Positions 1-51,444 of a DNA stretch of 64,000 bases are shown here, piece by piece; the first letter of the stretch is position 1, and every line of letters starts with the position of its first letter. The notes under the pieces are model-generated. The model saw nothing but the letters and a program-made list of their open reading frames with translations, had not been told where the DNA came from and did not search any database. The position numbers were made by a program, and so were the translations under genes. This DNA is from Antedon mediterranea (taxonomy: Eukaryota > Echinodermata > Crinoidea > Comatulida > Antedonidae): assembly GCF_964355755.1 (NCBI RefSeq), contig NC_092673.1, positions 4,035,001-4,099,000 on the forward strand. The letters are read 5' to 3'.

Positions 1-398
1 AAAAGTTTTCATACGAGAATTATAGAATCTTTGATGAAAATGATCATTTTAGATAATCATTGTAGGGGGTATTATTACCTCAGTGAACTGGGTCACAAAA
101 TAGCCCCAGTGTTCTGTGGATAAGAAAGGACAGTGATTAATTTGCTGATTAAGTTGCTGATTAATTTGCTGTTTGTCATCCTTGGCCACATGTGCCTAAA
201 TACATAAAATTAAAATTGTAGTATTAGTAGTTAATTATTCAGCTTAATGACTGGCATCGACTTTTCTCTTTTCTGACACATTTAACATTTCTCAACTCTA
301 CATTTGAATTGTACAATCCTATTTAGAATTGTTATCCTCTTTCAAATGGAAGCATGCTCTGAAATGTTCCTGTATCTCTCTTTTCTTTTTTTTTAAAG

Positions 399-3300
399 GC
401 CAATGAATCCCGTTCCTATTGTTATCAGTGATAAGCACGTCATCTTACTGTTCAACACTTTCCCGGAGGATAAGGAGGAAAATAAAGTAAGAAACAGTGC
501 CACCCGCGTATGGAATTTATTGATCACACAGAGTCATGATGGTGGAAAAACGTGGGAACCTTCCCGTGAACTACCAGTTGACGAGATCTTTTTTAATTAC
601 GCAAATGGGATACCATCTTGTTGCGCTATTGGTATGTTTATTTATTTTCCAATCCAATCAAAGAATTGTCAATCATGGTTATCTATTAGAATGTAAATAA
701 AGTTGTGTTTTGTCCAGATAAAAACGAGCAGTTGAGTAGATAATAGTATCCTATAAATAATCGCAGAATTTGGCCTGATACTTCGACTACGCCCCTTTTG
801 GTTAACTAAAGCTGAAAATATCCACAATGCACATCAGCATATTTGGAAAGTGCCTGGCTTTAACTATGTTTACAGTACGATAGTGTACTTTAGATGCTGA
901 TGCCCAGTATTGTTTAAATTGAAAGTGATTTTTAAAAATGCAAATGCCCTCTATGTTTTTTTGCTTAACCCTTTGAAGCGTATCCGGATATTCACCCCCT
1001 GGACATTTACCCCCCGGACAACTACCCCCCGGACAACCACCACCTGGACCACTACCCCCTTAGGACAACTACCCCTTTAGGACAACTACCCCCCGGACAA
1101 ATACCCCCCGGACAACTACCCCCTTAGGACAACAACCCCCTTAGGACAACTACCCCCTGGACAACTACCCCCCGGACAATTACCCCCTAGGAACAATTAC
1201 CCCCCGGACAATTACCTCCCGGACAATTACCCCCCGGACAATTTTACCACCCAGAAAACTATCCCTTTAGAACACCCTAACCACCCAGACCATTCAACAA
1301 CCTGACTCTGCAACTATTAATTAATAACTATATTTTAATTCGTTACTTTGACGAATTACTATTCATTATTGTAAACAAAAGTAAAAGATTGAACATAAAT
1401 ATAGCCTGGTGGTATAAACTGAAGATTGTCACACATGATCATAGGATAGTCGAACGTATTATATAGTACTCCATGTATTTACTGTAAAGACTGGGTTCGC
1501 TAATAATAATAATAATTTTTGCGTCAGGACAATGCTTCGATAACCACTGGTCTTAAAAGAATTAATTTTTGTCTCAAATTTGTCATATATGTATTTTTGT
1601 ACACTTGAAGAATAATATCACTTTTGATATTTGACCTCAATGTTCACTCACCGAATAAACGTCGATCTTTAAATAAATTCCCCTCAAATAAACGGTGACC
1701 ATGTCACTCCCATGAAACATCATATGGAATAATCGGCGTCTATTTCCATTAGATTATACCCCCTCCCATTGAATAAACAACTTTCTTCCAATAAATGTCC
1801 ACCTAAAAACCACATAAACAATAAACAGCCCAGGCCGTTTTTTCAATAAATACGGTACTTTAAATCTAGCACATCTAGGGTCTAGCGTGCTGTTAAACAA
1901 AACAGAATAATCGGTTAAAAACGGGTGTTTCGAAACTAGAGACCCGAGACCAGAGACCAGAGACCCGAGACCCAATACGAAAAGGGAGACCTAAATATAC
2001 GAAAAGGGAGACCCACGTACGAAAAGGGAGACCCCACTATACCAAAAGGGAGACCCCACTATACGAAAAGGGAGACCCTAATATACGAAAAGGGAGACCT
2101 AAATATACGAAAAGGGAGACCAAATATACGAAAAGGGAGACCCAAATATACGAAATGGGAGACCTAAATATACGAAAAGGGAGACCCACTATAAGAAAAG
2201 GGAGACCCCACTATACGAAAAGAGAGACCACACTATACGAAAAGGGAGACCCTAATATACGAAAAGGGAGACCCAAATATAGATCTCCCTTTTCGTATTG
2301 GGTCTCGTGTCAGGTCTCTGGTCTCCGGTCTCTAGTTTCGAAACACCCGTTAAAAACAGATGATTTCATTTTTACAGAAACCGGTCCTATATATTTGTCT
2401 ACTTTTGGATTGGGGGGGGGGGGGGGGTAGTTGACCGGGGGGTAGTTGACCGGGGGGTAGTTGTCCTAAGGGGGTAGTTGTCCTAAGGGGGTGGTTGTCC
2501 GGGGGGTAGTTGTCCGGGGGGTTGTTATCCTAAGGGGGTAGTTGTCCTAAGGGGGTAGTTGTCCGGGGGGTAGTTGTCCGGGGGGTAGTTGTCCTAAGGG
2601 GGTAGTTGTCCGGGTGGTAAACATCCGGGGGGTAACTGTCTAGGGGGTAGGTGTCCTAGAACCCTTTGAAGACGTGGCCCGTATATATACGAGGTAATTT
2701 TTTGGTCACTGAATTGCGCTTTTTGAGCATTTGACCTTTGACCTAGGTCAAAAAATAAAAATGCAATTTTTCGAAAGGCCAAAACATTTCACATAGCAAT
2801 AAAACCAACAATTGCAGAAAGTTACAGTCATAAAAATGTATTTTGCATTTTTCCTAAAACTATTAGAAATACCATATTAGCCAGAGTCACTTGGGGTAGA
2901 AACCTCCTGTTTCAAAACATAAATGTACAGTACCAGCTAATTTTTAAACTACGTACACAATTATATTGTATTATACAGGACCTGGTCATGCTATCAAGCT
3001 AGATTCAGGAAAGTTAATTGTGTCTGGAAATGTTAGATGGCCAGAATCAAAATCGAAACTTACACGTAAGTGGTGTGCTAAAAATAGAATGTCAAAATCC
3101 CCATACAGTTGACCCCGAAATTGACCTCTTTCTGTGTGTACTGTATTTCCAAATGGCATATATATTACAATATACCTTCATTGTAATTTACAGTACATTG
3201 TACAGTATGCAACAAAGCCGTAGCGAGAGGTTAAAGCGTGGTTCCCACTAGCGACGCAACGCAAGGACGTAACGCAACGCAAGTGAATTGACCAATCACA

Positions 3301-5521
3301 AGCGATGGCTTATTCGCTTGTGATTGCTAACTGTGTATAACTTCGCTTGTCATTGGTTAAAACGCTTAATTGCGTTGCGTTTACGTCCTTGCGTTACATT
3401 CTAGTGGGAACCAAGCATTAAAAACAGTTGGTTGGTAGGTCATTTTGATCATTCCATTATTAATCAGGAGGTAGGTCATTTGAAATACTAGAGTATTATT
3501 AAAACTGATTACTGTGTACTAATATTGTAACATGTAGAAGCGGCCTACGACTTAAATCATAAAGAAAATATACATCGCGATAGCGCCCACACGTTGAGCC
3601 TTGAATTGAGTTTGCTTAGCTTGGCTAGGCCTAAATGCTAAGCCTACATTTTAAAAGGTGTATACTGTATTACTTTATGATTTAAGTCGTAGGCTGCTAC
3701 TACAAGTTACAATAATAATTATTATTAGTAAGAAAACGTATAATACTGTAGTATTTCAAACAAGCTACTCTCTATTAATAATGGAACGATCCATTTGATG
3801 ATCTGGGTTTTCTAGTTCCATTTTGGAACTAGAAAAGTCAGATCTTGATATCTGAGTTTTCTAGATCTAGAAAAGTCAGATATAGATCTAGATATATCCC
3901 AATTTTATCTTTTTACTTATATTAACTTTCTTTTTGTTCTTTCTCTTTGTTGTGTGTTCCTTGTTTTCATCGTTTATCAAATTTGTTTTGATGTATTAAC
4001 GAATTTGAATTTGTAAATCCAAAATGGATCAATATATTAAAAAGTGTAGTTCTCATTTTCGCTTGGTTTCTTAATTCACAGGTCAATTTGCTATTATAAG
4101 TGACGATACTGGAAAAACCTGGCATATGGGAGGTTTCATTCCGTTGCCTGAATCTACAAATTGTTGTAAAAAAGGAAACAAAATCTCAGGAGGTGAATGT
4201 CAGGTAGGCCTACCAAAGATATAATTAATTTTCAATGATTATTGTAGAAAGTTATGTCATTTATTGTTTACGAGAAAGTCCGACATATTTGAAATACTTA
4301 TTTCTTTTTTTCAATTAAAATTTAAATTATACTTATCACTTATGTCTACAGAAAAACGAGTTAGATTTCTAAATATGTTCATATATTTTTTCTTTGCCCC
4401 ATTATTAATAAATGATTGTTTTTATTGATGCATAAAGTTCTGTCTTCACTATCAAACTTTATGTGACAAAAAAATGTGATGTGCCCATATATAGACATGA
4501 TGATGTCATATCACTACCATCTTTGGGCATATCACTACCATAGTATTTGGGCACACTTTTTTTGTCAAACTAGTTTGATAGTCTAGACAGAGCTTTAGTT
4601 AAAAACTGTAATTATTTATACAAATAATTTGTTATTATTTGTAGCCAGCTGACATGGGATCAGACAATGTTGTGATAAACTGTAGGACTGGAGACCGCAA
4701 TCCACGTTTCCAGTGCTATAGCTATGATGCATGTAAAACATTTAGTGACTCAGAGATGATGCCAACATTAATTGAACCAAAAAATGGTTGCCAGGTTAGT
4801 TTTTTTTTTCACCCATTTCAGGATTCCACTTTCTATAGTAAAATGCATTCAACACACAGATTCTGCTGTGCCTGATTGTTGTCAGTCAACTAGCTGGGGC
4901 CAAATAAAATAACAATTTATTGAGCGATCCCATTTTTGGAGTTTTGTAATGACTTGCGGCAAGTCTACCTTGCACCCTGCATAGCTGTGAGCTATGTCCA
5001 TGTTCAACAAGTTTGTAGTACGGTATTTGATTTGGTCACTACCAGTGACCAGTTTTCGCAATAAAAGGAAACAATCTCTGTTGAAGCCACTGGGTTGTCA
5101 AAGGCCTCTGTGAAAAAGTGGTCAGGTTGAAACCTTACCAACCATACTGGTGGCTACGGCCCTGACTACTGCTTAATTTCCCAAGTTACATAGGGCCTAG
5201 TTATTAAAATAATGTATGTATTATTTGTAGGGGAGCATTATTGGTTTTAAAGCAAACGATTCGGAACGCTTGGCACTGTTTAGTAATCCAGCTACCAGCT
5301 GTGTATGTAGGAAAAACCTTTCAGTGCGTTTAAGCAAAGACCAATCATGCAAGACTTATGATCCTCCAAACATAGTCATCGAACCTGATGATTCTGCTTA
5401 CTCGGATTTGGCAGCATTCATTCAAGACGGTGGGCAAACGTTTGCGTGTCTTTTTGAACGTAATAAGAAAACACGAAATATTGCGTTTACGACCTTTACA
5501 CTTGATGCACTTTTACACTAG
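399..5521 (+). CDS. Sialidase (neuraminidase, NEU-type) copy A, 3' five exons
   Basis: Exo-alpha-sialidase, which removes terminal sialic acids from glycoconjugates; the 5' exons lie left of the window. Exons by phase-consistent GT-AG joining, numbered as in the complete copies: 5 at 399-631, 6 at 2979-3065, 7 at 4082-4203, 8 at 4645-4794, 9 at 5231-5521 (stop TAG). Seen: an Asp-box SHDGGKTW in exon 5, PGHAIKLDSGKL in exon 6, a second clean Asp-box SDDTGKTW in exon 7, GGECQ (catalytic Glu) across exons 7-8, INCRT (triad Arg) in exon 8, and SAYSDL with the nucleophilic Tyr in exon 9. Compared with copies B and C, exon 7 is four codons shorter and lacks their Asn/Asp-rich insertion, and exon 9 is five codons shorter with a different tail (TLDALLH). 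No stops or frameshifts are seen in these exons, so the visible part could be functional. SIRT5 pseudogene A lies tail to tail downstream. Confidence 0.88.
995..1260. repeat. C-rich satellite array, left arm
   Basis: Tandem units of about 14-16 bp of the type CCCCCCGGACAACTA, alternating with variants containing CCCTTAGGACAACTA. They are the reverse complement of the array at 2408-2668, so the two form a large interrupted inverted repeat. No coding potential. Confidence 0.85.
1923..2348. mobile_element. Foldback/MITE element with GGGTGT ends and 9-bp target duplication
   Basis: Terminal inverted repeats start GGGTGTTTCGAAACTAGAG and extend through several GAGACC motifs. The element is flanked by a perfect 9-bp direct repeat GTTAAAAAC (1914-1922 and 2349-2357). 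The interior (about 1976-2282) is a tandem array of about 20-22 bp units, ACGAAAAGGGAGACC plus a short A/T spacer. No transposase. A 9-bp duplication is typical of Mutator-like elements and of Drosophila FB elements; that assignment is inferred. It shares ends with the element at 20355-21227. Confidence 0.75.
2408..2668. repeat. G-rich satellite array, right arm
   Basis: Tandem units of the type GGGGGGTAGTTGTCC and GGGGGTAGTTGTCCTAA, preceded by a long G run (2411-2427). Reverse complement of the array at 995-1260. The G runs could form quadruplexes on this strand (inference). Confidence 0.85.
3231..3421. mobile_element. TTAA-flanked MITE, GGTTCCCACTAG family (copy A only)
   Basis: TTAA at 3231-3234 and 3418-3421 flank a 183-bp element. 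Its terminal inverted repeats share TGGTTCCCACTAG and continue into GCAACGCAAGGACGTAA and its complement, about 40 bp with gaps. It is absent from the same intron in copies B and C, where different sequence follows the shared GAGAGGTTAAA. TTAA duplication fits piggyBac- or Kolobok-type mobilisation (known for those superfamilies). Confidence 0.75.
3426..3900. mobile_element. Shortened foldback element in sialidase intron 6, copy A
   Basis: Inverted arms: TACGACTTAAATCA (about 3547) pairs with TGATTTAAGTCGTAGG (about 3677), and the flanking blocks continue the pairing outward. The right arm ends in short palindromes (TTTCTAGTTCC...GGAACTAGAAA; GATCTAGAAAA modules) at 3810-3900. The outer left arm present in B (19884-20030) is missing here, where the TTAA MITE sits. 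This appears to be the un-nested state of the 3.7-kb structures in copies B and C. Confidence 0.55.
4434..4597. mobile_element. MITE, AGCTCTGTCTACACTATC family
   Basis: About 160 bp with inverted ends (AAGTTCTGTCTTCACTATCAAAC on the left, the complement GATAGTCTAGACAGAGCTTT on the right). Inside are TGTGATGTGCCCATAT, a TGATGATGTCATA palindrome and repeated ATATCACTACCAT motifs. One of about a dozen copies in this window; this one lies in sialidase intron 7. Confidence 0.8.
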
Positions 5522-7811: not shown

Positions 7812-8349
7812 ACAGTACCTAACTGTACTTTATAATAGCTAGAAACCATAGTATTACAAGATTTAAAGTGTGTCCACATATCAATTGGATATAAATTATT
7901 AGTACTGATGTATATATGCGACCTGAGTATTGAATCTCCCACTCCCTTATAATACCACAACCTCTTGAAGATCCATGATCCTGTGCAATACAAGGAATGC
8001 AACTTAAGTACTGTAAGTACCCACATATTCTAAATATGCATTATTTATATACTCTGTTGATATTCTGTATATCTCTGGATTGATTTGAATGGTTGTCTTG
8101 AATTCCTTGTACTAATTTGGTTCCGATGGATGTCTCTCAATTGCTTTTGGCAAGGTTTCTCCAGCAGGCCCTTTGAAGTGAAAACTGCAATACACATAGA
8201 TAAACATTCCAATAAACCAGAGACCACTATTAACATCTATTTTTATCTCCAGTATCAAGCCATGGCTGTTCAAAAGACAAACATATACACAAGATGCTCT
8301 ACATAAACAAAGTCTTATTACAAGTCTTTGTCAGTGGAGTTGTAATTTG

Positions 8350-8431
8350 TCATTAGAAAAAATCCAGGACTTGAACCCAGAACCCTTGGATTGGTAGCTA
8401 AGCATCATAACCACCAATCCACAACTCCACT
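8350..8431 (-). mobile_element. tRNA-derived SINE head, copy A only
   Basis: The minus strand reads AGTGGAGTTGTGGATTGGTG...GGTTCAAGTCCTGG, a B-box with an A-box-like block about 45 bp upstream. B and C have only a shrunken remnant between SIRT5 exons 7 and 8 (around 27720-27755). Confidence 0.5.
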
Positions 8432-8649
8432 CAACTTATTGACTCAGTACTTACTGAAATCGGCTTGTTGCCGGAGTATCTTCTAAGTTAAACTCGGCAG
8501 TTGGTACCTTGCTATTGTAAGGCCTAAAAGCAGCAGCAGGGTACACAACAGATGAGGTACCCACCTAGGGAAATGATAAATACGTCAATAATTTCATATG
8601 TCTTATACTGTAGGATGTTCACAGATCAAATGTTCTCACTTCAGCTCTC

Positions 8650-8795
8650 AACCTTAAAGCTAAAGACAAAAAATGTGTGATGTGCCAAAATGGTACTGTA
8701 GTTATATGCCTAAATATGGTAGTAATATGACATCATCATGTACATAGGCACATCACATTTTGTGTCATAAAGTTCGATAATGTACAACAGTGCTG
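8650..8795. mobile_element. Hybrid AGCTCTGTC-family MITE at the deletion junction
   Basis: The left side matches the flank of the MITE at 27961 (shared 'cttcagct.tcaacc.taaagct'). The right side matches the flank of the MITE at 30032 (shared 'gctgtgtttat.atacc'). Exactly the sequence between these two B elements, including SIRT5 exons 3-6, is missing here. The ends are degenerate. Confidence 0.65.
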
Positions 8796-9428
8796 TGTTT
8801 ATAATACCTTAATGCACAGTTATAAAAACCTTTATGCCCAAATTTGTTTCTAATCATTTTGAAATTTATCATGGTATTACACTTACAATGTGTGCCTTGT
8901 TTGGCTCCTTCAATGCAGCTACTTCACGACGATGGCTATAAAACTCCCACACAAGTGATGGATTATCCGCAAAGGCATTAGGACTGACTAAATCCTGTTT
9001 TAAAAAAAAAAGAAGTAATCAAGATTTGTATTGTGACTGTGTCACATGATGATGAAGTATCTTATTGTGATTTTGAAATCTGAAATTATTGTGAAACAAT
9101 AATTAAATCTATATATTATTACTTCACGGGTAATAGCACTTAATTATCCTTGTTCATTGCGCATAACATGTGTCACTTGCCTGAGCACGGTAGGTTCTCC
9201 AGCTCCTCTAAAAGTCGGAATGCCACTCTCTGCACTATCACCCTGCTCCTGTCATTACAACAATGTGTTTTGCTTTCTGGAAATATTCACGAAAAGTAGC
9301 ATAGTCTGAACTTAGACGAGGAGATACCATTTTTACTTGTATCGCTGTTCTGAGGATATATCTCGAATGGCCGAGAATGTTAAAGAGTCGCTATCCAATC
9401 GAGTTTGAACAATACCATGAAAGCCCCC

Positions 9429-9484
9429 AGTGGTCTGATTGTTAGGACATCTGCATATCAAGCAGGCGGTCCGAGTTCGACTTT
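9429..9484 (+). mobile_element. tRNA-like SINE fragment
   Basis: A-box-like CAGTGGTCTGATTGTTAGG and B-box-like GGTCCGAGTTCGACT are spaced as in a tRNA. There is no good acceptor stem, so it is a SINE head or pseudo-tRNA. It sits just past the truncated SIRT5 exon 1; the matching copy is at about 30789-30844. Confidence 0.4.
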
Positions 9485-9586
9485 TACTCATTCTCACAGA
9501 TTTCCTCATCTTTATCGTTTAAAATGAATTAATTAAATTTCAGTATATCACCGGGCGGTTTAGAATTACTGTTCTTTGCCTGATTT

Positions 9587-9592
<6 letters not shown>

Positions 9593-9620
<28 letters not shown>

Positions 9621-11180
9621 CCAACTGAAAAAATGACAATGCTGTGGGTATCAGTGACTGGATCTCAATAGAGATACAAAAAAAAAGCGAAAAGCTAAAT
9701 CAAAATGATAAAGTAAAATAGCCAGAAAAGTTAGCAGAGCTTTCTGGCAACACTAGCCCTTCATCAGTGCAAGTGCAGGAATTTGGATAACGTCATAGTA
9801 TAAGAGCTGGCAAGTGCTGCCTGGGTGGACAGAGAATAAAAGAAAAACAACAAAAGGAGACAGGGTGGAGTCTGAATAAGAGTAGAAGACAAAGAAGTTA
9901 GCTTGGTAGAGATATAAACAATTTTGGAACGAAATTAAAAATTAAAATAGTGGCTAATATTGAAACTTAAATTTTGGTAGTCAATGGAATACTTTTACCG
10001 ATCTGGGAGTATGTTCCTAATATGCTAAGTCCAAAAAGTTTTGTGGTTTTAAGTTGTAATTCCCAGTGGTTTTCTTTGTCTCTGCGAGTTTTGTCGCTCC
10101 ATTTGACATCGTGGTCTATTTGCAATAAACTCTGAAATTTGCAATCGAGTGACCAGCTGAATTAAAATGTTCGGCTACAGGTTGATCAAGCTTTAATGTT
10201 TTGATAGCTGATCTGTATTGTGTCATTCTCATACGGAGAGTGTTTTTTGTTTTTCCGACGTACTGTTTTCCACAAATATTACAGTATATGAGATAAATGA
10301 CGTCTTTGGTTAGACAATTAATTGATTGTCTTATCCGAAAAATGCGGCCAGTTTGGTTACTCTTAAATTTTTCAGTAGAATCAACCAATGAACAAGTTTT
10401 GCAAGATTTGCCACAAAGGTGACTGTCCAAATTTTGGCTGTCATGAGAGTTAATTACACTCTTAAATTTGGATCTGACTAAAATATCACGAAGGTCGGGA
10501 GGTCTACGAAATGCAATATAATGGGTGGTTCCGGAAAAATAGTCCTGAGACGTTCTGTGGACTGTAATGGGCATATGTTTCTCAATAACAGCCCGTAATG
10601 GGTGATAGGTTGTGACGAATGGATCTGGTCAAATATTTTGGCTGACGTGGTTTTTGTACGTCAGTGTTTGACATCGAGCAATATCTTTTGCTTTCTTTAT
10701 AGCAGTTTCAATGTATTCCTTCTTGTAATTTCTATTTCGGAGATGTCCGGTTAGTTCTTCGGTACGATTCTGAAAATCTAAATCTGAAGAACAGATACGT
10801 CTGATATGTAATGCTTGACTGTACGGTGTTTTTAGTACAGTGTTGGGGATGACAACTGCTAGGGAGCAGGTACATATTTTTATCCGTGGTTTACAGAATA
10901 GGTCAGTTTTGAGTCGATTTTCTATGGTCACTATAGTGTCCGTCCAAAAAATCAACGCTACTAGTGGATTTGGTAGCTGTAAATTTTATTGTTGGGTACG
11001 TGGGCTGAATTAATATTGAGAAGAAAAGATTCCAAATTATCTTCACCATGGGTCCAGATCATGAAGATTTCGTCAATGTATAACCAAACAAGTGGTTTTT
11101 TAGGTTGGAAGGACAGAAAATTGGAGCAACGGCAGCTTAATTTAGTATACACTGTTGATAACTCTTCCAATAGTTAGTAA
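9593..11180 (-). mobile_element. Penelope-like retroelement fragment, linker A
   Basis: Minus-strand pieces of one Penelope-like polyprotein. Reverse transcriptase piece at 11170-10961 with the active-site-like YIDEIFMIW (the second Asp of the usual DD is Glu). RT C-terminal piece at 10955-10629 with the family-typical SQALHIRRICSS and FQNRTEEL. GIY-YIG endonuclease region at 10574-10116 with YLIYCNICGKQYVGKT. The pieces are out of frame and 5' truncated, so the element is dead. The 3' part contains a candidate hammerhead motif and ends next to an (AT)n tract at 9587-9616, a typical insertion context. It lies between SIRT5 pseudogene A and sialidase exon 1. Confidence 0.85.
9735..9770 (-). 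ncRNA. Candidate hammerhead ribozyme core of the Penelope-like element
   Basis: The minus strand reads CTGATGA (9761-9767), a short GGC/GCC stem with its loop, then GAAA (9741-9744). These are the two conserved boxes of the hammerhead fold. Penelope-like elements are known to carry minimal hammerheads in their terminal repeats. Stem III and the cleavage site are not convincing by eye. Confidence 0.4.
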
Positions 11181-11289
11181 GTTAAAACTGCTTGGTGTAA
11201 TAATCCAAAATGACCTCAAATGGGGTTCAAATGTTCAAATGATATAACATCAAGACCCTCACGTAGACCAGTTAACAATACTAGAAACC

Positions 11290-12000
11290 ATAGAGATTAT
11301 GTTCATTATTATCTCTATGTGAGTAAACTTACGCCCACCAGACTATTATTTGATTATGAACTTCGAACTGTACTTAACTACATAAGAGTCTAGACTAGCA
11401 TTATCTCATGCATTGTGTGTTTTGAAACAGCTCAAACAAAGTATAAAGATTTAATATTTTATTTTAATTTTGTTTTTCGTATTGTATTTCTAAGCTTTGT
11501 ATTTTACTGCATTTTACAAGGTGCATTAAAAGTGTACAATGGGAGGATGCTGCCTCAAGTCTAAAGTAGGTAAGGTTTCAACGATTTAACGTGAATTACA
11601 GTAGAAAAGAGCGCTACGGTCACACATAACGCGGCCCTTAAAACAAGTTGGGAGAAAAATGGGACTCAACAGGCTAGAAACATGCACCAGGGAGTTGGGT
11701 CTAACAACAACTCCCTGCATGCACCACCCATTTTACAGCTACAGTGAAATATTTGAACTACTTTTTGATCTATTTTATTACTATACAGATGGTAGTATTA
11801 ATATTACTGTATGTTAGCACTTTCTCATTTTCTCGATATGCCTCTTGCCAATTGTAATTGTACCAAACATAATCAATCACCCTAAATGCTTAAAATCACA
11901 TGCATGCACTGGATATAGGTTTTATTATTATAATTGTGTATAAAATAGTTTATTTCAATTTTTAATTTAAATACAGTAATTTTATATTTTGTTTTCAGCA
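11290..12000 (+). repeat. Duplicated 5' segment of the sialidase gene, first copy
   Basis: Closely matches 16700-17300, including the polypyrimidine and acceptor region, the donor GTAAGG, and the following intron up to a TTTTCAG acceptor. Here the core is exon 1 with the ATG; there it is a 21-nt microexon. The sequence after the acceptor at 11999 does not match exon 3. Confidence 0.8.
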
Positions 12001-15000
12001 ATATATAAATTAACAATGACTGACCGTGATCGACAATCTATCACGTGCACAATCACGAGATCTTTGCTCACGTCACTATCTATTTTGTCACCATTTAAGC
12101 GCTTATCGTGGGGGTGAATCGGTTAAAAAAAGAATTGAATTACCTAATTTGACGCACACAAGAGCGGGCCGTGGCCAAATTTATATCGCGCGCGTATAGT
12201 GTGACGCAAACTCGCGCGCGTATAGTGTGACGCAAACCTATTATACAAATCAATAATATAGGCCCTATCCCCCAGCCCAAAATGATCAAAGGTGCTTAAA
12301 TTATTGTACCCAATTCTCAACAATTAGATTTTTCAATTTTAAATTGGTGAATGTTTGACAAAAGTTGGAGCTCCAAAAGGCATTTCATCAACAACATACC
12401 GGCTGTTAATATCACTCAGATACGAAAGCCCATTAATACGAAAGCCCATTAATGCCATTTTAAGTGTATGTTTTTCGAACGTAATCCGTTCTAACGAATT
12501 AGTAATTCGTTTGAACGGATTAATAATCTGTTCAAACGAATTAGTAATCCGTTCAAACGAATTGCAACATATACAACAAGTGCCATTTAAAGTATATGTT
12601 GTAATTCGTTTGAACGGATTACTAATCCGTTCAAACAAATTACTAATTTGTTTAAACGGATTACTAATTTGTTCAAACGGATTACTAATCCGTTCAAACG
12701 AATTACTAATTTGTTTAAACGGATTACTAATTCGTTCAAACGAATTACTAATTTGTTTAAACGGATTAGTAATCCGTTCAAACGAATTACTAATTCGTTC
12801 AAACGAATTAGTAATCCGTTTAAACGAATTAGTAATTTGTTTAAACAAATTAATAATTTGTTTAAACGGATTATTAATCTGTTTGAACAAATTAGTAATT
12901 CGTTTGAACGAATTAGTAATCCGTTTAAACAAATTATTAATTTGTTTAAACAAATTAATAATTTGTTCAAACGGATTACTAATTCGTTAGAACGAATTAG
13001 TAATTCGTTTGAACAAATTAGTAATCCGTTTAAACAAATTACTAATCCGTTTGAACGGATTCCTAATTCGTTTTAACAGATTAGTAATCTGTTTAAACAA
13101 ATTAGTAATTCGTTTGAACAGATTAGTAATCCGTTCAAACGAATTACAACATATTCTTTAAATGGCACTTGTTGTATATGTTGCAATTGGTTTGAACGGA
13201 TTACTAATTCGTTTGAACAGATTACTAAATCCGTTCAAACGAATTACTAATTTGTTTAAACAGATTAATAATCTGTTCAAACGAATTAGGAATCCGTCCA
13301 AACGGATTAGTAATTTGTTTAAACGGATTACTAATCTGTTTAAACGAATTACTAATTCGTTTAAACGAATTAGTAATCCGTTTAAACAAATTATTAATTT
13401 GTTTAAACAAATTACTAATTTGTTTAAACGGATTACTAATTCGTTCAAACGAATTACTAATTCGTTCAAACAGATTAGTAATCCGTTTAAACAAATTATT
13501 AATTTGTTTAAACAAATTATTAATTTGTTTAAACAAATTATTAATTTGTTTAAACAAATTACTAATTTGTTTAAACGGATTACTAATTCGTTTGAACGAA
13601 TTAGTAATCCGTTTAAACAAATTATTAATTCGTTTGAACGAATTAGTAATTCGTTTGAACAAATTAGTAATCCGTTTAAACAAATTAGTAATTCGTTTGA
13701 ACAGATTAGTAATCCGTTTAAACGAATTACAACATATACTTTAAATGGCACTTGTTGTATATGTTGCAATTCGTTTGAACGGATTACTAATTCGTTTGAA
13801 CAGATTATTAATCCGTTCAAACGAATTACTAATTCGTTAGAACGGATTACGTTCGAAAAACATATACTTAAAATGGCATTAATGGGCTTTCCATATACCG
13901 AAGACCAAGACAAAACTATTTCTAGATTTCATGTACTAAAAACACCTCATTTTTTGGCCTATAGATCAACTTTTTTGTATTTCTACTAAAAACGGTATGT
14001 ATGCTTATCCTTGTGGTTTACAAAAGAGAAATTTATGTTATAATGTAGTTAAATATCAGTGCTAAACAAATACAATGTACAAGTAAAGTATGGTCGCTTG
14101 TTTACCACGGATTTTGTGTAACGAGTGGGTTTTCTATAAAATATGGTAGTGGGGCAAGTTGTCACAACCTGTGACAACTTTATACTGTCATATAAATAAA
14201 TAAACTGCTAGATAGGCTTATTCTTGCTTTGTAGGCCTTAAAGCCCCATTCCCTACGTTTTTTAGATCTAATTTAAGATCACAAACTATATTTAATGTAA
14301 AAATAATACTATATGGTCCTATTGCGATAACTTTTTTCGTCTTTAAACGGTTAAAAATGTGAAAAATAAGTCGATTTTAATAATTATAGCGGCCCGCTAT
14401 AAATCCCAAAATGCATTGCGCGCGGATTGATATTTTTGTTTTTCACCTGTAATTCGCCCACTTTTCGATCGATCGTGAGGCCAAAACAAATGGAAGACTC
14501 CCAACTTTTCAGCGAAAATATCGGGTTTTCCCCAATTTGTATCAACGGAGTCTGGCAAAAATAGAAAGACAATTAATGCAGCAACTATACAACGTCAGGC
14601 TAGGTATATAGCTAGCGTACGATGTTCGTACGTTACCGATGTTTACCAGCTAGGCCTAAAAAACTAAGCCTAGCCAGGCTAGGCCTAAGACCGTCCACGA
14701 GAGGTCGATCGCCGCGAGCTACTTAGGTAGTGCATTGTTTCTCACTTTTTATCATAATTTACCATAAAACGTACATTTAAGACAAGGAATGACATGGTTT
14801 AATGTTTTTAAAGTGATATACATGTATTATTTTCCAAAAAACGTCCAAAATTGCAGGGAAGGGGTCTTTAACCATTTTGTTTTCTTGTCAATTGGATATA
14901 GGGACCCCTAATAATCGAGAAAACACAATGTTTATATTATTTTTTCTATTTTATTCATATGGTACGCAATTAAAAGCGTTAAAAAAAAGTGTTAGATGAA

Positions 15001-30031: not shown

Positions 30032-30128
30032 TAAAGCTCTGTCTACACTATCAAACTAGTTTGACAAAAAATGTGTGATATGCCCAAATATGGTAGTAAT
30101 ATGAAATCATCATGTAGTAGACAGAGCT
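30032..30128. mobile_element. MITE, AGCTCTGTC family, short copy (SIRT5 B intron 2)
   Basis: Left end AAGCTCTGTCTACACTATC and a reduced right end TAGTAGACAGAGCT; internal deletion. Absent at the corresponding place in copy C (about 50730), but its right flank matches copy A. Confidence 0.75.
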
Positions 30129-38800: not shown

Positions 38801-41800
38801 TACTCCACCCTTAGCTTAGGGTGGAGTAAACACAAATGTTAAATTAAAATAATGGAGATGAAAATTCACAATACAAAGATATTAGACGTCCATGTCAACA
38901 ACAACGATAAATATACATTTTTTCTACAGAAAACAAAAGAATTATAAAAGTTTTCATACGAGAATTATAGAATCTTTGATGAAAATAATCATTTTAGATA
39001 ATCATTGTAGGGGGTATTATTACCTCAGTGAACTGGGTCACAAAATAGCCCCAGTGTTCTGGGGATAAGAAAGGACAGTGATTAATTAATTTGCTGTTGG
39101 TCATCCTTGGCCACATGTGCCTAAATACATAAAATTAAAATAAAATTGTAGTATTAGTAGTTAATTATTCAGCTTAATGACTGGCATCGACTTTTCTCTT
39201 TTCTGACACATTTAACATTTCTCAACTCTACATTTGAATTGTACATTCCTATTTAGAATTGTTATCCTCTTTCAAATGGAAGCATGCTCTGAAATGTGGT
39301 CCCTGTATCTCTCTTTTCTTTTTTTTTAAAGGCCAATGAATCCCGTTCCTATTGTTATCGATGAAACTCACATCATCTTACTGTTTAACACTTTCCCGGA
39401 GAAAAAGCCGGAAAACGATATAGTAGAAAGTGACAGACGCTTATGGAATTTATTGATCACACACAGTTATGATGGTGGAAAAACGTGGGGACCTTCCGTT
39501 GAACTACCAGTTGACGAGATCTTTTCTAATTTCGAAAATGGGATACCATCTTGTTGCGCTATTGGTATGTTTATTTCTTTTCCAATCCAATCAAAGAATT
39601 GTCAATCATGGCTATCTGTTAGAATGTAAATAAAGTTGTGTTTTGTCAAGATAAAAACGAGCAGTTGAGTTGATAATATAGTATCCTATAAATAATCGCA
39701 GAATTTGGCCTGATACTTCGACTACGCCCCTTTTGGTTAACTAAAGCTGAAAATATCCACAATGCACATCAGCATATTTGGAAAGTGCCTGGCTTTAACT
39801 ATGTTTACAGTACGATACTTTAGATGCTGATGCCCAGTATTGTTTAAATTGGAAGTGATTTTTAAAATGCCCTCTATGTTTTTTTGCAAAGTTACAGTCA
39901 TAAAAATGTGTTTTAAATTTTTCTTAAAAATATTAAAAATACCATATTAGCCACAGTCACTTGGGGTAGAAACCTCCTGTTTCAAAACATAAATGTACAG
40001 TACCAGCTAATTTTTTTAAACTACGTACACAATGATATTGTATTATACAGGACCTGGTCATGCTATCAAGCTGGATTCAGGAAAGTTAATTGTGTCTGGA
40101 AATGTTAGATGGCCAAAATCAAAATCGAAACTTACACGTAAGTGGTGTGCTAAAAATAGAATGTCAAAATCCCCATACAGTTGACCCCAAAATTGACCTC
40201 TTTCTGTGTGTACTGTATTTCCAAATGGCATATATATTACAATATACCTTCATTGTAATTTACAGTACATTGTACAGTATGCAACAAAGCCGTAGCGAGA
40301 GGTTAAAACCAGCAAGGCACAGATGGTTCAACAGTTACGGGGAAATGGCAAAATTAGCACTGTGTGGTCATGTTACAAGAGTTGTCAAAACAATATAGAT
40401 TATCTGATAAAAAGCCTTTTGCCATTTTCCCCTGACTGTTAAATATAATTATTAATATACAATATGACGATCTCTGATGGGGAATTGTGGTGGGTAGTGA
40501 AAATTGAAAATTTAGGACGAGGAGAGCGCTCATCTGCCTCATGCTGGCCACAGCCCTGGTATTCATAAGCCCTTGATACTCAATCCCCAATTTTAACAAG
40601 GCCGTAGCGAGGGGTGTCTAGAAAACTCAGATCTCAGATATATCTGACTTTTCTAGATCTAGAAAACTCAGATATCTGACTTTTCTAGATCTAGAAAACT
40701 CAGATATCAATATCTGACGTTTCTAGTTCCAGAATGAAACTAGAAAACTCAGATCATCAAATGATTGGTTGGTAGGTCATTTGGATCATTCCATTATTAA
40801 TCAGAAGGTAGGTCATTTGAAATACTAGAGTATTATTAAAACTGATTACTGTGTAGGCCTACTAATATTGTAACATGTAAAAGCGTCCTACGACTTAAAT
40901 CATAAAGAAAATACAGTGCATGTTACAGTTAAAATGTAGGCTTAAAAATTAGGTATGTACGAGTTGGTGTGGGTACGAGCTGGTTGAGGTACGAGTTAGC
41001 CAAGATAGGAATAGGTACGAGTTATTTTAGGTACGAGTTGACCACTTCTAGCCTTGTAGGGCCAGGCCTACTCTTCGCGATAGGGTGTCTCGAAAACAGA
41101 GACCTCGAAAACAGAGACCAGCTGAGACCCGAGACCCAGGGTCTCTGTTTTCGAGGAAATCTCGAAAACAGAGACCCCACTAAAACGTCTCAATATTACG
41201 TATTATAGGGGTCTCTGTTTCGAGTTCTCGAAAACAGAGACCCCCACTAAAACGTCTAAATAATACGTTATTATGGGGTCTCTGTTTTCGAGATTTTATC
41301 GAAAACAGAGACCCCCACTAAAGCGTCTCAATATTACATTATATAGGGGGTCTCTGTTTTCGAGAAAAACTCGAAAACAGAGACCCCCCACTAAAACGTC
41401 TCAATATTAAGTCATTAAATTACCTTATATAGGGGGTCTCTGTTTTCGAGAAAAACTCGAAAACAGAGACCCCCACTAAAACGTCTCAATATTAAGTCAA
41501 TATTACGTTATATAGGGGGTCTCTGTTTTCGAGAAAAACTCGAAAACAGATACCCCCATTAAAACTTCTTAATATTAAGTCAATGTTACGTTATATATGG
41601 GGTCTCTGTTTTCGAGTTTTTCTAGAAAACAGAGACCCCCACTAAAACGTCTCAATATTACGTCAATATTATGTTATATAGCGGTCCCCACTAAAACGTC
41701 TCAAAATCACAGAATGACGTATCAGTAATAAACGGTAACTGATATGCCGATCAAAGAACATGCCGCAACGATAAGAAGAGATTGATGAATTCTTGAACGC

Positions 41801-44800
41801 GTGTGAAAAGACTGTCATTTTGTAATACAAGGTCGACGTCCTAGGAGTAAGATGTATAAATGCATGCTGTGCCTTTTAGAAGCTAAAAAGCTGGAGATTA
41901 TTTCAAAAGCTGACACTAGTTTCTCGGGTCTCTGGTCTCTGTTTTCGAGACACCCCTTCGCGATACATCGCGAGATAGCGCCCACACGTTGAGCCTTGAA
42001 TTGCTTAGCTTGGCTAGTAGAATGAATGAGGTAGAAGCCAGCCGGAGAGGTAGAAATTCTCATATGACTTTTCTAGACCAGTTTTTTCTGGGGAATCCAA
42101 ATATATTGGGTAAACAGGCTGTAACCTGAGAACTTTCGCGTGAGGGCGCTTTTTTCAAAATGGCTGCCAGTTACAATAGACTATGATATCTTGGCAACCA
42201 CTGGTGATACAGAGTTGATTTTGGTGTCAAATTGGTCGGAATGTACATGTTCCTATTTGATGTAATAGAACATTTTGTCCGAAAATGGCCGGAAATACCT
42301 CTATTGACCTTTGACCCAATATCTAACAGATACCATATCTCCGTAACTACTTGACACAGAAAGTTGTAATTGGTGTCAAACTATCCAGAATATAGATGTT
42401 TATATTCAAACTAATAGAACATTATCTGTAAAAATGACCGGAAATAACTTTAGTGACCTTTGACCCAAAATGCAAGACATTTCTCCTATCTGATCACGTT
42501 TAGTAGTATCTTGTCAATTAATTCATTTTGTGCCGATTGGAGGTTGACATTCTCATATTATTTTCTGGACCAGTTTTTCATGTGTAATCCTAATATATGA
42601 GATGAATAAGCCATAACAAGGCCAAGAATTTAATTCTTTTACTACATACATACATGCTTCCCTTTAGTGTTTAAGTCTGTATGTCGTGTATTAATCTTCA
42701 AGATCGCTCACATCACTGCCATCTGAAAAGTCTTCATATTCATAACTGGAAGCTTCTGGAATCAAAAGCAAAATTTGTTGACACATTCTGCAACCTTGGA
42801 GTGTCAGCTGTTCCATCAAAAGAGTTGTATGAGGAACTTGAAGAGTATGTTTCACTATTGTATGGAGTGAAGGGGAAAAGTGTAAATCAAGCAAGATATG
42901 ATATCTTCATCAGAAAGTTTTCCAGACACAAGATTACTGATATATCATTACTGCCACCATGTCAGCAGACCCCTTGAGTTTCATATACTTAGAGCAAACT
43001 TCATTGCAAAAGAATGGCAATCAGCAGACGTCAATGATTTTGTCAACAACAGTACACACAATGGATGGAATGAACAAATGGAGCCTAAATGGATTGAGAC
43101 AGTGATGCCCACTGATGTCCAGGAACTGTTTACACATAATGAATATGAAGACTTTTCAGATTGCAGTGATGTGAGTGATCTTGAAGATTAATACACGACA
43201 TACAGACTGAAACACTAAAGGGAAGCATGTATGTATGTAGTAAAAGAATTAAATTCTTGGCCTTGTTATGGCTTATTAATCTCATATATTCGGATTGCAC
43301 ATGACAAACTGGTTCAGAAAATAATATGAGAATGTCAACCTCCAATTGGCACAAAATAAATTAATTGACAAGATATTACTAAATGTGATCAGATAGGAGA
43401 AATGTCTTGCATTTTGGGTCAAAGGTCAGTAACGTTATTTCCGGTCATTTTTACAGATAATGTTCTATTAGTTTGAATATAAACATCTTTATTCTGGACA
43501 GTTTGACACCAATTACAACTTTCTGTGTCGAGTAGTTACGGAGATATGATATCTGTTGGATATTGGGTCAAAGGTCAATAGAGGTATTTCCGGCCATTTT
43601 CGGACAAAATGTGCTATTACATCAAATAGGAACATGTACATTCCAAACATTTTGACACCAAAATCAACTCTCTATGACCAGTGGTTGCCAAGATATCATA
43701 GTCTACTGTAACTGGTGGCCATTTTGAAAAAAGCGCCCTCACGCGAAAGTTCTCAGGTTACAGCCCGTTTACCCAATATATTTGGATTCCCCAGAAAAAA
43801 CTGGTCTAGAAAAGTCATATGAGAATTTCTACCTCTCCGGCTGACACCTACCTCATTCATAGCCTAGTCTATAGGCCTAAATGCTAAGCCTACATTTTAT
43901 AAACAAAAGGTGTATACTGTATTTCTTTTTTAAGTCGTAGGCTGCTACTACAAGTAGTCTGGGTTCCAGACGGAGTTTTGTCTTAATATTAGTTAAAAGA
44001 TAAATATTTTGGCACATATGGCGTTTCATACGTATACTACTTGATTTTGAAATCGCGGTTGAAATAAAAACAAATAAATAAAAAAAAAAGATAATACAGA
44101 CTTGGGGCAAGTCTACTACTACAAGTTACAATAATAATTATTAATTATTAGTAAGAAAACGTATAATACTGTAGTCTTTCAAACAAGCTACTCTCTACTA
44201 ATAATGGAACGATCCATTTGATGATCTGGGTTTTCTAGTTCCATTTTGGAACTAAAAAACTCAGATCTTGATATCTGAGTTTTCTAGATCTAGAAAAGTC
44301 AGATATAGATCTAGATATATCCCAATTTTTTCTTTTTACTTATATTAACTTTCTTTTTGTTCTTTCTCTTTGTTGTATGTTCCTTGTTTTCATCGTTTAT
44401 CAAATTTGTTTTGATGTATTAAAGAATTTGAATTTATATTTGTAAATCCAATATGGAACAATATATTAAAAAGTGTAGTTCTCATTTTCACTGGGTCTCT
44501 TAATTCACAGGTCAATTTGCTATCATAAGTGACATTAACAATAATGACAATAATGGAGCAACCTGGCATATGGGAGGTTTAATTTCGTTGCCTGAATCTA
44601 AAAATTGTAAAAAAATAAAGAAAATCTCAGGAGGTGAATGTCAGGTAGGCCCACCAAAGATAATTAATATTCAATGATTATTGTAGAAAGTTATGTCATT
44701 TATTGTTTACGAGAAAGTCCGACATATTTGAAATACTTATTTCTTTTTTTCAATTAAAATTTAAATTACTTATCACTTATGTCTACAGAAAAACGAGTTA

Positions 44801-45987
44801 GATTTCTAAATATGTTCATATATTTTTTCTTTGCCCCATTATTAATAAATGATTTTTTTTATTGATGCATAAAGTTCTGTCTTCACTATCAAACGTTATG
44901 TGACAAAAAAATGTGATGTGCCCATATATAGACATGATGATGTCATATCACTGCCATCTTTGGGCATATCACTACCATTATTTGGGCACACTTTTTTTGT
45001 CAAACTAGTTTGATAGTCTAGACAGAGCTTTAGTTAAAAACTGTAATTATTTATACAAATAATTTGTTATTATTTGTAGCCAGCTGACATGGGATCAGAC
45101 AATGTTGTGATAAACTGTAGGACTGGAGACAGCAATCCACGTTTCCAGTGCCATAGCTCTGATGCATGTGAAACATTTAGTGACTCACAGTTGATGCCAA
45201 CATTAATTGAACCAAAAGGTGGTTGCCAGGTTAGTTTTTTTTTTCACCCATTTCAGGATTCCACTTACTAATATAGTAAAATGCATTCAACATACAGATT
45301 CTGTGCCTGATTGTTGTCAGTCAACTAGCTGGGGCTAAATCAAATAAAAATTTATCGAGCGATCCCATTTTTGGAGTTTTGTAATGACTTGCGGCAAGTC
45401 TACCTTGCACCCTGCATAGCTGTGAACTATGTCCATGTTCAACAAGTTTGTATTATTTGATTTGGTCACTACCAGTGATGTAGTCACAATATAAGTGGTC
45501 CGGTTTTCGCAATAAAAGGAAACAATCTCTGTTGAAGCCACTGGGTTGTCAAAGGCCTCTGTGAAAAAGAGGTCAGGTTGAAACCTTACCCGCCATACTG
45601 GTGGCTACGGCCCTGACTACTGCTTAATTTCCCAAGTTACATAGGGCCTAGTTATTAAAATAATGTATGTATTATTTGTAGGGGAGCATTATTGGTTTTA
45701 AAGCAAACGATTCGAAGCTTCCTGAAGACCCTGAACGCTGGGCACTGTTTAGTAATCCAGCGAACAGCAAATCGAGGAAGAACCTTTCAGTGCGTTTAAG
45801 CAAGGGCCAATGCCAGAATTGGTATGACCCTCCAAACATAGTCATCGAACGTCATGGTTCTGCTTACTCAGATTTGGCAGCATTCATTCAAGACGGTGAG
45901 CAAAAGTTTGCGTGTCTTTTTGAACGTAATAAGACATCGAGACGACGATATATTGAGTTTACGACCTTTACACTTGGTAAAGTGTAA
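32897..45987 (+). CDS. Sialidase (neuraminidase, NEU-type) copy C, complete, 9 exons
   Basis: Exons: 1 32897-32927 (ATG), 2 37639-37659, 3 38026-38071, 4 38435-38605, 5 39332-39564, 6 40051-40137, 7 44511-44644, 8 45080-45229, 9 45682-45987. By eye the protein is identical to copy B (392 residues, same YRIP, Asp-box SYDGGKTW, GGECQ, INCR and SAYSDL elements and the MGGCC start). Differences seen are intronic: loss of the 630-bp TTAA insertion in intron 1, two nearby substitutions in the palindrome array, and a few bases in the polypyrimidine tract before exon 5. SIRT5-C follows tail to tail. Either a very recent duplication with doubled dosage, or two alleles placed in series by the assembly. 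Confidence 0.85.
33799..35248. mobile_element. Foldback element of 21-bp palindromic repeats, linker B
   Basis: Copy of 12441-13890 at offset 21358. One adjacent pair of palindrome arms (about 34918-34928) differs from linker A (ACTAATTTG against AGTAATTCG), a switch between repeat variants rather than scattered point changes. Confidence 0.85.
35506..36185 (+). mobile_element. Pogo-like transposon remnant, linker B, without MITE
   Basis: Same ends and PHD-like Cys/His remnant as 14148-15457, but with an empty TTAA site at 35596-35599. Confidence 0.55.
35596..35599. other. Empty TTAA site (no 626-bp element)
   Basis: Flanks GTAGGCC and CCATTTTG meet at a single TTAA, exactly the pre-insertion or precise-excision form of the site at 14238-14871. 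Confidence 0.85.
36468..37063 (-). pseudogene. Non-LTR (LINE) reverse transcriptase fragment, linker B
   Basis: Identical in layout to 15740-16335 (offset 20728), with the same frameshift before FADD. Duplicated passenger. Confidence 0.85.
38786..38843. repeat. Perfect 26-bp hairpin in sialidase C intron 4
   Basis: Copy of 18058-18115. Confidence 0.85.
41083..41955. mobile_element. Foldback element of tandem hairpin modules, copy C
   Basis: Copy of 20355-21227, including the CTTCGCGATA flanking duplication. Confidence 0.8.
42022..43860. mobile_element. 1.8-kb element with 723-bp inverted repeats, copy C
   Basis: Copy of 21294-23132; arms 42022-42744 and 43138-43860. Confidence 0.8.
42748..43190 (+). 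pseudogene. Broken transposon-associated ORF, copy C
   Basis: Same two frames and frameshift as 22020-22462, with the same acidic tail. Confidence 0.55.
44870..45031. mobile_element. MITE, AGCTCTGTC family (sialidase C intron 7)
   Basis: Copy of 24142-24303. Confidence 0.8.
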
Positions 45988-48215: not shown

Positions 48216-51200
48216 CTAATTTGGTTCCGATGGATGTCTCTCAATTGCTTTTGGCAAGGTTTCTCCAGCAGGCCCTTTGAAGTGGAAACTGCAATAAACG
48301 TAATTTACATAAATAAACATTCTAATAAACCAGAGACCACTATTAACATCTATTTTTATCTCCATTATCAAGCCATGGCTGTTCACAAGACAAACATATA
48401 CAGAAGATGCTCTACATATATAGCCTTCAGGCTAACATAATGTATGCCAGAGCCCTTCGATTGGTAGCGAAGCCACAACTCAACTTGATTGACTCAGTAC
48501 TTACTGAAATCGGCTTGTTGCCGGAGTATCTTCCAAGTTAAACTCGGCAGTTGGCACCTTGCTATCGTACGGCCTAAAGGCAGCAGCAGGGTACACAACA
48601 GATGAGGTGCCCACCTAGAGAAATGATAAATACATTTCATAAACATATTGTAGGCATGATCGAATGTTGTCACTTCAGCTATCAACCCTAAAGCTCTGTC
48701 TACACTATCAAACTAGTTGGGCAAAAAAAGTGTGATGTGCCCAAATATGGTAGTGATATGCTAAAATATGGTAGTGATATGACATCATCGCCCTATATGG
48801 GCACATCACATTGTTTTGTCACATAAAGTTTGATAGTGTAGACAGAGCTTAATATGAATACGTAGACTTGTGATTTCTCTCACCCATCTTTGAAGAAAGA
48901 GCTGTGCCATTGTTTAAGAGGAATTGGTAAAATGAAGAAACGAATAGAAGGCTCCAAAATGTAATTATATAATAACTTAAGTTTCTTTTTTTTTGCTAAA
49001 ACCTTTTCTTCTATTGAAATGATTAAAATAATCTGTTTTGATTACTATAAATAGTAAATAAGAGGCGTTTTACTACAAATGATTGAAAATCACCTACCAC
49101 CAAATAAAGATCGCATTTTTCAAGATGTTTCTCAATTTCCATTAGTGTGTCTGGACAAAGTGGTTCACCAAACCAGACAACGTCGGGCCTGGTGAGTGCT
49201 GAACATTCACCGCACCTGAAGAGAAAAATATTCATGCCATCTATATTAAAATTATGCAGGGAACAATGATTCTGAAAACTAGTTGGACAAAAAATGTGTG
49301 ATGCACCCAAATATGGTAGTGATATGCTTCAATATGGTAGTGATATGACATCATCACATCTACACATCACATTTTTTTGTCACATAAAGTTTGATAGTGT
49401 AGACAGAGCTTTACATTAGTAAGTCATTTGTACCTGAGGCTTATAATGTTGATATTCGCAAAGGCACCCCCCAATCACCTTCCCACTTGCATTATATCAG
49501 TCTCATGACCCCTCTTTTGAAGTTTGTGTATAATTTGTGTTGTCTGGCACTACATACAGTATATTACCACTATCAGTAGGAATGTTTACCTTGGTAAATC
49601 TTCTACAGGTATTCTGTCACCTTTTGCATTTGGATCTGGTGAACTTTTAAAAAAGATAAAGAACAAGATTAGCAAAATATACTACTGATAAATAGATCAT
49701 TTATTAAGAACAGTGTGAAATCTATTGGCAGCCATGACAAAAATACATAGAAATTTATACAGGTTTAACAACATAGGATTCTTTGTAAAGTAATATTATT
49801 ATTGAAATATAATATACTACTTACCCTCTACCAGCAAGAGCAGGAACTATGGGATTGTTGTAATTGCTGAGAATAATACCACATTTTGTACATCTGGTCT
49901 TGTATAGAGATCCTACAAAAATAGCAAAAGTAAATAAAAATATATTTAGTTAGCACATTTATTTATTCACCAATAGCAAATGAATTAGAGCAAACAAAAA
50001 TAGCTTTTTGCCCCATACTAACAAATACATTGTATACAGTATGAACAATAGCAATGAAATAGATATAACAATATATAGTATATATAAATATACTAAGTGA
50101 AAAAATATGATTGCTTTCCATTAAATGTGTTCAATGCCAAACAAATAAAAGAGTTCCTATTTATTCTGAAAATCACTATCGGCATGGTTATCTGTGCAAA
50201 TAGCACAATCATGCATGATATTTACTATTTTCTATGCAGTGGACTGTACTGGATAGAACGGGGATAAAAAAACAGAATTAAGAAGAATGGTGGAACTTGC
50301 CAATAGAAAACTATTACAATTTTGCTGGTGATAGTCTCAAGTTATTCTAAATAGCGGAGCTGTAGCTTGGTGATTAACATGCTTGCCTTCTAATCCCAAG
50401 GTCTATGGTTCAATCCTTACCTATGTGCCAGGGTTGTAACTCATGACTCTTTCAACTCCGTTCGCTAAGCCTCAAATGAGACATACAGAGTTTATAAGCG
50501 CGATAAATTAAAAAATAGTTCATCCATTCTGTAACTGCTTGCTGATGGATGAAAAAAAAAATAAATAGGAACAAATTAAATGGACTACTGTACCAACCAT
50601 GAATCTCTAAGACTTTTAAAGATCCAGCACGGCGATGAAGTTCATCAATGTTCTGTGTGATAACAACAACTGTTCGTCCTTGTCTTGCAAGTCGTGCCTC
50701 ACATTCTGCTATAGCCTTAGAACAAGATTAGTTTATCATACCTTAATGTACAGTTATAAAAATCTTTGTGCCCAAATATTTGTTTCTAATTATTTAGCAG
50801 TATTGGCAATTTATTTTGATATTGCACTTACAATGTGTGCCTTGTTTGGCTCCTTCGATGCAGCTACTTCACGACGATGGCTATAAAACTCCCACACAAG
50901 TGATGGATTATCCGCAAAGGCAGTAGGACTGACTAAATCCTGTTTTTAAAAAAAGGAAGTAATCAAGATTTGTATTGTGACTGTCACATGATGATGAAGT
51001 ATCTTATTGTGATTTTGAAATTTGAAATTATTGTGAAACATTAATTAAATCTATAATTTATACAAGAAACATTGATATTACTGATTTACAACTTCAGAGG
51101 TATTAGCACTTAATTTATACCGTTTAAATTTGTGTGTTATGCGCAATTCTGAATATGAACAATTCTGGAAAAATCCTTGCCTGAGCACGGTAGGTTCTCC

Positions 51201-51444
51201 AGAGTCCTCCAGCTCCTCTAAAAGTTGGGATGCCACTCTCTGCACTACACCCTGCTCCTGTCATTACAACAATGTGTTTTGCTTTCTGGAAATATTCACG
51301 AAAAGTAGCATAGTCTGAACTTGGACGAGGAGATACCATTTTTACTTGTATTGCTGTTGTCAGGAGATATCTCGAATGGAAGTTAGATAGGCCTATCAAT
51401 TTACACAAATATTTCATTTTCCGGGTTACGTATTGGAAGTTCAT
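48216..51444 (-). CDS. SIRT5: SIRT5, NAD-dependent protein desuccinylase/demalonylase, intact copy
   Basis: Class III sirtuin that removes succinyl, malonyl and glutaryl groups from lysines, chiefly in mitochondria (family knowledge). Exons on the minus strand: 1 51181-51444, 2 50832-50939, 3 50598-50715, 4 49825-49912, 5 49590-49643, 6 49098-49215, 7 48505-48614, 8 48216-48288. All phases agree, giving 310 residues, the length of human SIRT5. Seen: NAD loop GAGCSAESG (63-71), acyl-pocket YxxR motif Tyr107/Arg110 in [15 protein letters not shown] (144-151), catalytic His163, zinc ligands Cys171/174 and Cys212/215, [10 protein letters not shown] near the end. The second Cys pair is closer than in vertebrates. 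The first 35 residues are basic and hydrophobic and suit a mitochondrial leader; Met36 is an alternative start. Intron 1 uses a GC donor (CAG/GCAAGG). Head to head with TMEM230. Confidence 0.93.
48689..48852. mobile_element. MITE, AGCTCTGTC family (SIRT5 C intron 6)
   Basis: Copy of 27961-28124. Confidence 0.85.
49278..49412. mobile_element. MITE, AGCTCTGTC family, truncated (SIRT5 C intron 5)
   Basis: Copy of 28550-28684. Confidence 0.8.
50362..50518 (+). mobile_element. tRNA-derived SINE (SIRT5 C intron 3)
   Basis: Copy of 29634-29790. Confidence 0.7.

Follow-up and report, generated by a model that had tools for sequence, protein, structure and literature searches.

In the primate L/M opsins, introns are gene-converted whereas exons are held apart by selection (PMC3213168, PMC3924837). 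Divergence of exons above that of introns is seen in the L/M opsins of gibbons (PMC3213168), and the divergence-peak model has been reviewed (PMC3924837). Accelerated exons are also described for NPIP/morpheus and other primate segmental duplications, where selection on exons has been discussed (PMC7419210, PMC3906575).

Here we describe an array of sialidase genes in the crinoid Antedon mediterranea, located in a stretch of 64,000 nucleotides hereafter called the window. Like the L/M opsins, the array sialidases are tandem paralogs in which exon divergence is significantly above that of introns, and synonymous sites, which exceed introns in the opsins, may do so here too (p=1e-7 for dS, but p=0.05 at strict four-fold sites). 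Unlike in the opsins, the gene is a sialidase and divergence is raised in most exons, not in a few. The array shares with NPIP/morpheus coding exons that evolve faster than the flanking introns inside a duplicated block of ~20 kb; however, NPIP copies are mostly interspersed whereas the sialidase copies are tandem, and the present gene belongs to a known enzyme family, retains its main catalytic residues and has a dN/dS not clearly above 1. The exon-only divergence of these sialidases adds a further case to a mode of evolution already known. Literature searches for duplicated sialidases of invertebrates returned no account of such a case.

Layout of the array and its newest step

The window sits on C4, a chromosome-scale contig of 36.2 Mb within an animal genome of 354 Mb. 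Window positions are written as w, negative values denoting the upstream stretch, of which 40 kb was read too, for 104 kb in all; N bases are absent from the entire 104 kb. This ungapped sequence holds four tandem units, namely the decayed relic Z (about w-9000 to w-2100), A, B and C (Table 1). The array is a tandem segmental duplication, and the duplicated block comprises a complete NEU2-like sialidase, including the start exon and the region upstream of the gene, together with a leader-truncated SIRT5. Because the sialidase start exons of B (w11539) and C (w32897) fall inside spacers, the working unit is spacer plus gene. No sialidase coding exons were detectable in relic Z.

Table 1. Features of the sialidase/SIRT5 array, in window positions (E0 to E8, sialidase exons)
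Feature	Position	Strand	Details
Sialidase A, E0-E3	w-2214, -1432, -1047, -527	+	upstream of window
Sialidase A	399..5521	+	E4-E8 at 399-631, 2979-3065, 4082-4203, 4645-4794, 5231-5518 + TAG
SIRT5 remnant, unit A	8121..9370	-	exon 1 (1-bp insertion, immediate TGA stop, 10-bp deletion), exon 2 and last two exons; middle exons missing
Spacer X1	9371..14867	.	reverse-strand ORF with weak GIY-YIG match; sialidase B E0 (11539-11569); 21-bp satellite (12481-13850); 623-bp insertion
Sialidase B	11539..25259	+	392 aa; exons 11539-11569, 16911-16931, 17298-17343, 17707-17877, 18604-18836, 19323-19409, 23783-23916, 24352-24501, 24954-25259
SIRT5, unit B	27497..30730	-	non-functional chimera; middle and last exons C-type, exons 1-2 A-type with the stop of A
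B/C duplication junction interval	29982..30442	.	inside SIRT5, exon 3 edge to intron 1; close to neither parent
Spacer X2	30443..35598	.	near-identical to X1, without the 623-bp insertion; sialidase C E0 (32897-32927)
Sialidase C	32897..45987	+	coding sequence same as B, 392 aa
SIRT5, unit C	48222..51444	-	intact; start codon 51444; apparent GC-AG first intron
TMEM230	52705..52974	+	open frame with Pfam match; right-hand end of array

Self comparison places C one period of 20.7 kb after B, and the offsets from A to B range from 16.3 to 21.3 kb because of unit-specific insertions; between unit A and the newer units, divergence is several to ten percent. Units A and B are homologous to C as far as w51379, within the SIRT5 leader exon, and relic Z as far as w51439. 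TMEM230, beyond this border, has only one match genome-wide.

An earlier note on this DNA had described a sialidase (+) and SIRT5 (-) pair repeated in three units from base 1 with a period of 20.7-21.4 kb, ending inside the SIRT5 leader next to single-copy TMEM230, with B and C almost identical over 20.7 kb and A older. The repeated pair, the step from B to C, the near-identity of these two units and the right-hand border all stand. The array does not begin at base 1, since w-2214 to w-345 hold four exons of sialidase A, its start codon among them, and Z, a fourth unit, lies beyond, and the wider spread of A-to-B offsets replaces the single period. Unit A is older but not uniformly so: it differs from B by 6-12% towards SIRT5 and by 10% in the sialidase exons, but mostly by 1-3% in the sialidase introns and 3' flank.

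The match of w14868-29994 to w35596-50722 is gapless over 15,127 aligned bp at 99.98% identity, with substitutions at 18588, 29982 and 29990 only, and the spacers (from w9083/w30443) differ by 3 substitutions and one TA-repeat step over 5.16 kb. In total, the two versions of the ~20-kb block, B and C, are set apart by 6 substitutions, a single TA-repeat step and a TTAA-flanked insertion of 623 bp. A divergence of about 0.03% indicates a young copy; the array itself is genuine, and its latest enlargement is recent. The 623-bp insertion (about 14242-14864), found in the X1 spacer only, has a TTAA target duplication and imperfect terminal repeats, and would be piggyBac-like judging by its target.

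Unit B is C-type up to the edge of SIRT5 exon 3 and A-type from intron 1 onward, which is the order expected if the SIRT5 copies of A and C had crossed over unequally, and the newest copy may well have arisen by such an exchange. Because the 460 bp of w29982-30442 are close to neither parent, a third SIRT5 sequence or a later conversion would also have taken part; on these alignments, a simple two-parent crossover is an incomplete account of the B/X2 junction. The same 460 bp led us to reject a crossover placed precisely at the edge of exon 3. A haplotype switch, considered from an apparently spread-out 1% divergence between X1 and X2, was likewise rejected, the differences mapping to about 300 bp of SIRT5.

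Identical coding sequences and a 99.98% match over 15 kb could also be produced by an unpurged haplotype or assembly duplication, in which case B and C would be one unit and the chromosome would carry two functional units. We consider this unlikely. The 104 kb are gapless and free of N, neither TMEM230 nor unit A is duplicated, one of the two copies carries its own 623-bp insertion, and SIRT5 in B has C-type exons continuing into A-type exons 1-2, an arrangement that neither A nor C shows. A falsely kept haplotype would moreover bring its own flank or a gap, and the B/C joint has neither a duplicated unique flank nor a gap, making an artefact less likely.

Several repeats and mobile elements were observed in and around the units. 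A 21-bp palindromic satellite (AATTCGTTTAAACGAATT-type) occupies 12481-13850 and 33839-35208, with about 60 copies per spacer, and creates long spurious open frames on both strands. Each spacer also contains one reverse-strand open frame with a weak GIY-YIG match (10119-10985 and 31474-32343), possibly a Penelope-like element, and related DNA occurs in Z. A fragment of an RVT_1 reverse transcriptase (E=2e-25) lies at 15839-16384 between E0 and E1 of sialidase B and is repeated in C. Downstream of TMEM230, HSP70-like exons with weak Pfam HSP70 matches (56429-59013, minus strand) possibly belong to an HSPA12-type gene. The window yielded no tRNA genes.

Sialidase and SIRT5 genes of the units

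The sialidase gene consists of nine exons, of which the start exon codes MGGCC... and is separated from the next exon by 5.4 kb in B and 4.7 kb in C. Sialidase A has an open frame of 386 aa, and its internal exons are bordered by AG acceptors and GT donors. A fourth intact relative of 376 aa, paralog D, is found on another contig, C1 (C1:38667-38676k), without SIRT5, and contigs C2 and C5 carry more distant sialidase-like genes. In intron 5, sialidases B and C have an insertion (21294-23132, 42022-43860), absent from A, that contains a 722-bp inverted repeat (95.6%); sialidase A has an insertion of its own at 964-2818, flanked by inverted GGACAACTACCCCC arrays. Both sialidase loci have a ~181-bp satellite, which lies at w-40000 to w-32892 on C4, some 30 kb upstream of unit A, and directly upstream of D on C1. 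Weak matches to BNR_2, about nine in number (E 0.015-0.19) and with short exons that resemble one another, are spread on both strands over ~1 Mb of C8 (C8:4779495-5742444); this cluster looks like a separate expanded Asp-box family.

Pfam BNR_2 matches the array sialidases with E=5e-28 (A) and 6e-21 (B), and NEU2 ranks first among solved structures (phmmer E about 1e-28); by sequence family, these genes are GH33 NEU2-like sialidases. Residue numbers are those of NEU2 and were verified by counting along its sequence; of the two probes, NEU2 and SIRT5, the NEU2 probe agrees with database alignments. Alignment to NEU2 finds R21, R41, E218, R304 and Y334 at their expected positions; D46 and R237 also occur, shifted by one residue at neighbouring gaps. 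The arginine triad (R21, R237, R304), the acid Asp D46, Glu E218 and the nucleophile Tyr Y334 are all kept in the aligned A, B and D, such that the array sialidases share these active-site residues with human NEU2. They differ from it by V/W at the positions of Y179/Y181, by loop lengths and by an N-terminus of MGGCC or MGGST; this Met-Gly-Gly start would fit N-myristoylation or an acyl anchor. An apparent Asp in place of the catalytic Glu (ECQPADM) did not hold up, as E218 is, by count along NEU2, the conserved Glu of ECQ. Differences between A and B are mostly located between conserved motifs, for instance around the E111 position and beside R304 and Y334, a placement that suggests a possible change of substrate preference.

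All SIRT5 exons are present and open in C only. The exons of C match residues 24-307 of human SIRT5 and give a complete catalytic domain in one open model, and the genome search returned SIR2-family matches at this locus. The copies in A and B have in common a 1-bp insertion that leads to a stop after ...MTGAG, plus a 10-bp deletion, and the parts of SIRT5 A join at a short repeat element that also occurs in the introns of B. At w51175-51190, GCAAGG follows the final CAG of SIRT5 C exon 1, and the intron appears to be of the GC-AG type; A and B read GCAAGT. A short repeat (CATATCACTACCATATTTGG-type), often intronic, was observed at 4434-4595, 24143-24302, 27960-28122, 28548-28685, 52357-52523, 53456-53577 and 56029-56178, and the deletion of the SIRT5 A middle exons coincides with such copies.

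The duplicated SIRT5 copies are without the leader start and presumably without a promoter. Being cut inside the leader exon, they were probably non-functional from birth, whatever selection did. Their decay follows from the position of the duplication border and is therefore no evidence on selection for SIRT5 dosage: the loss of SIRT5 is a by-product of the block border, and its decay needs no selection.

Divergence of sialidase exons and introns

Between sialidases A and B, exons differ at 110/1091 positions (10.1%) and introns at 72/3348 (2.15%; p=8e-26). The nine coding indels are all multiples of three (6, 6, 6, 15, 3, 18, 6 and 3, plus 3 in the start exon), a 15-bp length difference at the very end of the coding sequence reflects different stop codons, and of the intron gap lengths listed, roughly one in three is a multiple of three. 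With paralog D as outgroup, both sialidase lineages are fast in exons, with 62 and 40 changes per 1086 positions, and slow in introns, with 16 and 15 changes per 1860. The opposite order is found in SIRT5, used as a control: between A and C, exons differ at 15/439 positions (3.4%) and introns, where their alignment is clean, at 29/207 and 28/180 (13-16%), which is the ordinary pattern of exons below introns and the reverse of the sialidase.

Polarised codon changes amount to 30 nonsynonymous and 3 synonymous on the A branch and to 20 and 4 on the B branch. The whole-gene dN/dS is 1.2-1.3 (dN 0.124) with a bootstrap range of 0.83-2.1, so codon counts alone are no proof of adaptive change. Synonymous sites are themselves diverged, as dS is about 0.10 compared to 0.0215 for introns (p=1e-7), the excess at strict four-fold sites (6/121, 5%) being marginal versus introns (p=0.05).

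Intron sequence within 50 bp of an exon (<=50 bp) is 3.2% divergent versus 1.9% deeper in the introns (p=0.04). The exon edges of A/B divergence are sharp, which requires either many small conversion tracts or strong selection. Per 250 bp, A and B have 0-3 mismatches just before w7598 and 14-31 beyond, so that a homogenised block of 1-2% divergence ends abruptly near w7.6 kb. This jump implies that the sialidase block was homogenised after the units first split, with the exons kept at roughly the older level.

Explanations and significance

From these comparisons, which cover one assembly of one species, we consider it rather probable that selection against gene conversion keeps the A and B/C sialidases different while the noncoding block around their exons is homogenised. 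More specifically, the noncoding parts of the sialidase block would have been made alike in A and B/C by fairly recent gene conversion or unequal exchange, and conversions reaching coding exons would have been removed by selection, since the two enzymes would have different roles, probably on different sialylated substrates.

A serious rival, which we regard as possible if rather doubtful, is that A and B/C are a young duplication in which strong positive selection confined to exons acted without any gene conversion. The sharp exon edges, a dN of 0.124 against an intron divergence of 0.0215 and the predominance of nonsynonymous changes on both branches are all compatible with it. Two observations speak against it: synonymous divergence (about 0.10; 5% at four-fold sites) is also above that of introns, and the adjoining SIRT5 part of the unit is 6-16% divergent, which makes the A/B unit pair old. 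A dN/dS near 1 might instead point to lost constraint, the exons decaying neutrally next to introns that are constrained or converted; this we find very improbable, as frames remain intact (386, 392 and 376 aa), coding indels preserve the frame, splice sites and main catalytic residues are kept, and low divergence runs on into the 3' intergenic DNA, so that the introns are not specially constrained.

The earlier note had found the sialidase intact in A, B and C, which the open frames of 386, 392 and 392 aa bear out, and SIRT5 surviving once, which agrees with a complete gene in C only and the stop and deletion in A and B. From three intact sialidases versus one SIRT5, it had proposed that selection, if acting, favours more sialidase. 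That sialidase copy number, or dosage, is itself selected seems unlikely to us, though, given that the SIRT5 copies were probably dead at birth through loss of the leader start and probably of the promoter. In addition, Z has lost its sialidase exons, meaning that copies are not always kept, and B and C separated too recently to bear on the question. The far greater divergence of exons than of introns between A and B/C points to selection for different sialidases, not for more of one.

Beyond selection against conversion, we tentatively raise a broader scenario, less likely to hold than not to, in which these are actively expanding and possibly membrane-anchored sialidases whose coding loops would be diversified by selection, acting through microbe, gamete or self-recognition glycans, while conversion erases differences outside the exons.

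The duplication border within the neighbouring SIRT5 illustrates how one gene multiplies and the other decays without selection for copy number. Tandem copies with distinct exons and homogenised introns mark those sequence differences that matter for function. In Antedon mediterranea, the gene carrying this signal encodes a sialidase, a member of an enzyme family involved in cell-surface recognition, and it lies in a very recently enlarged array.
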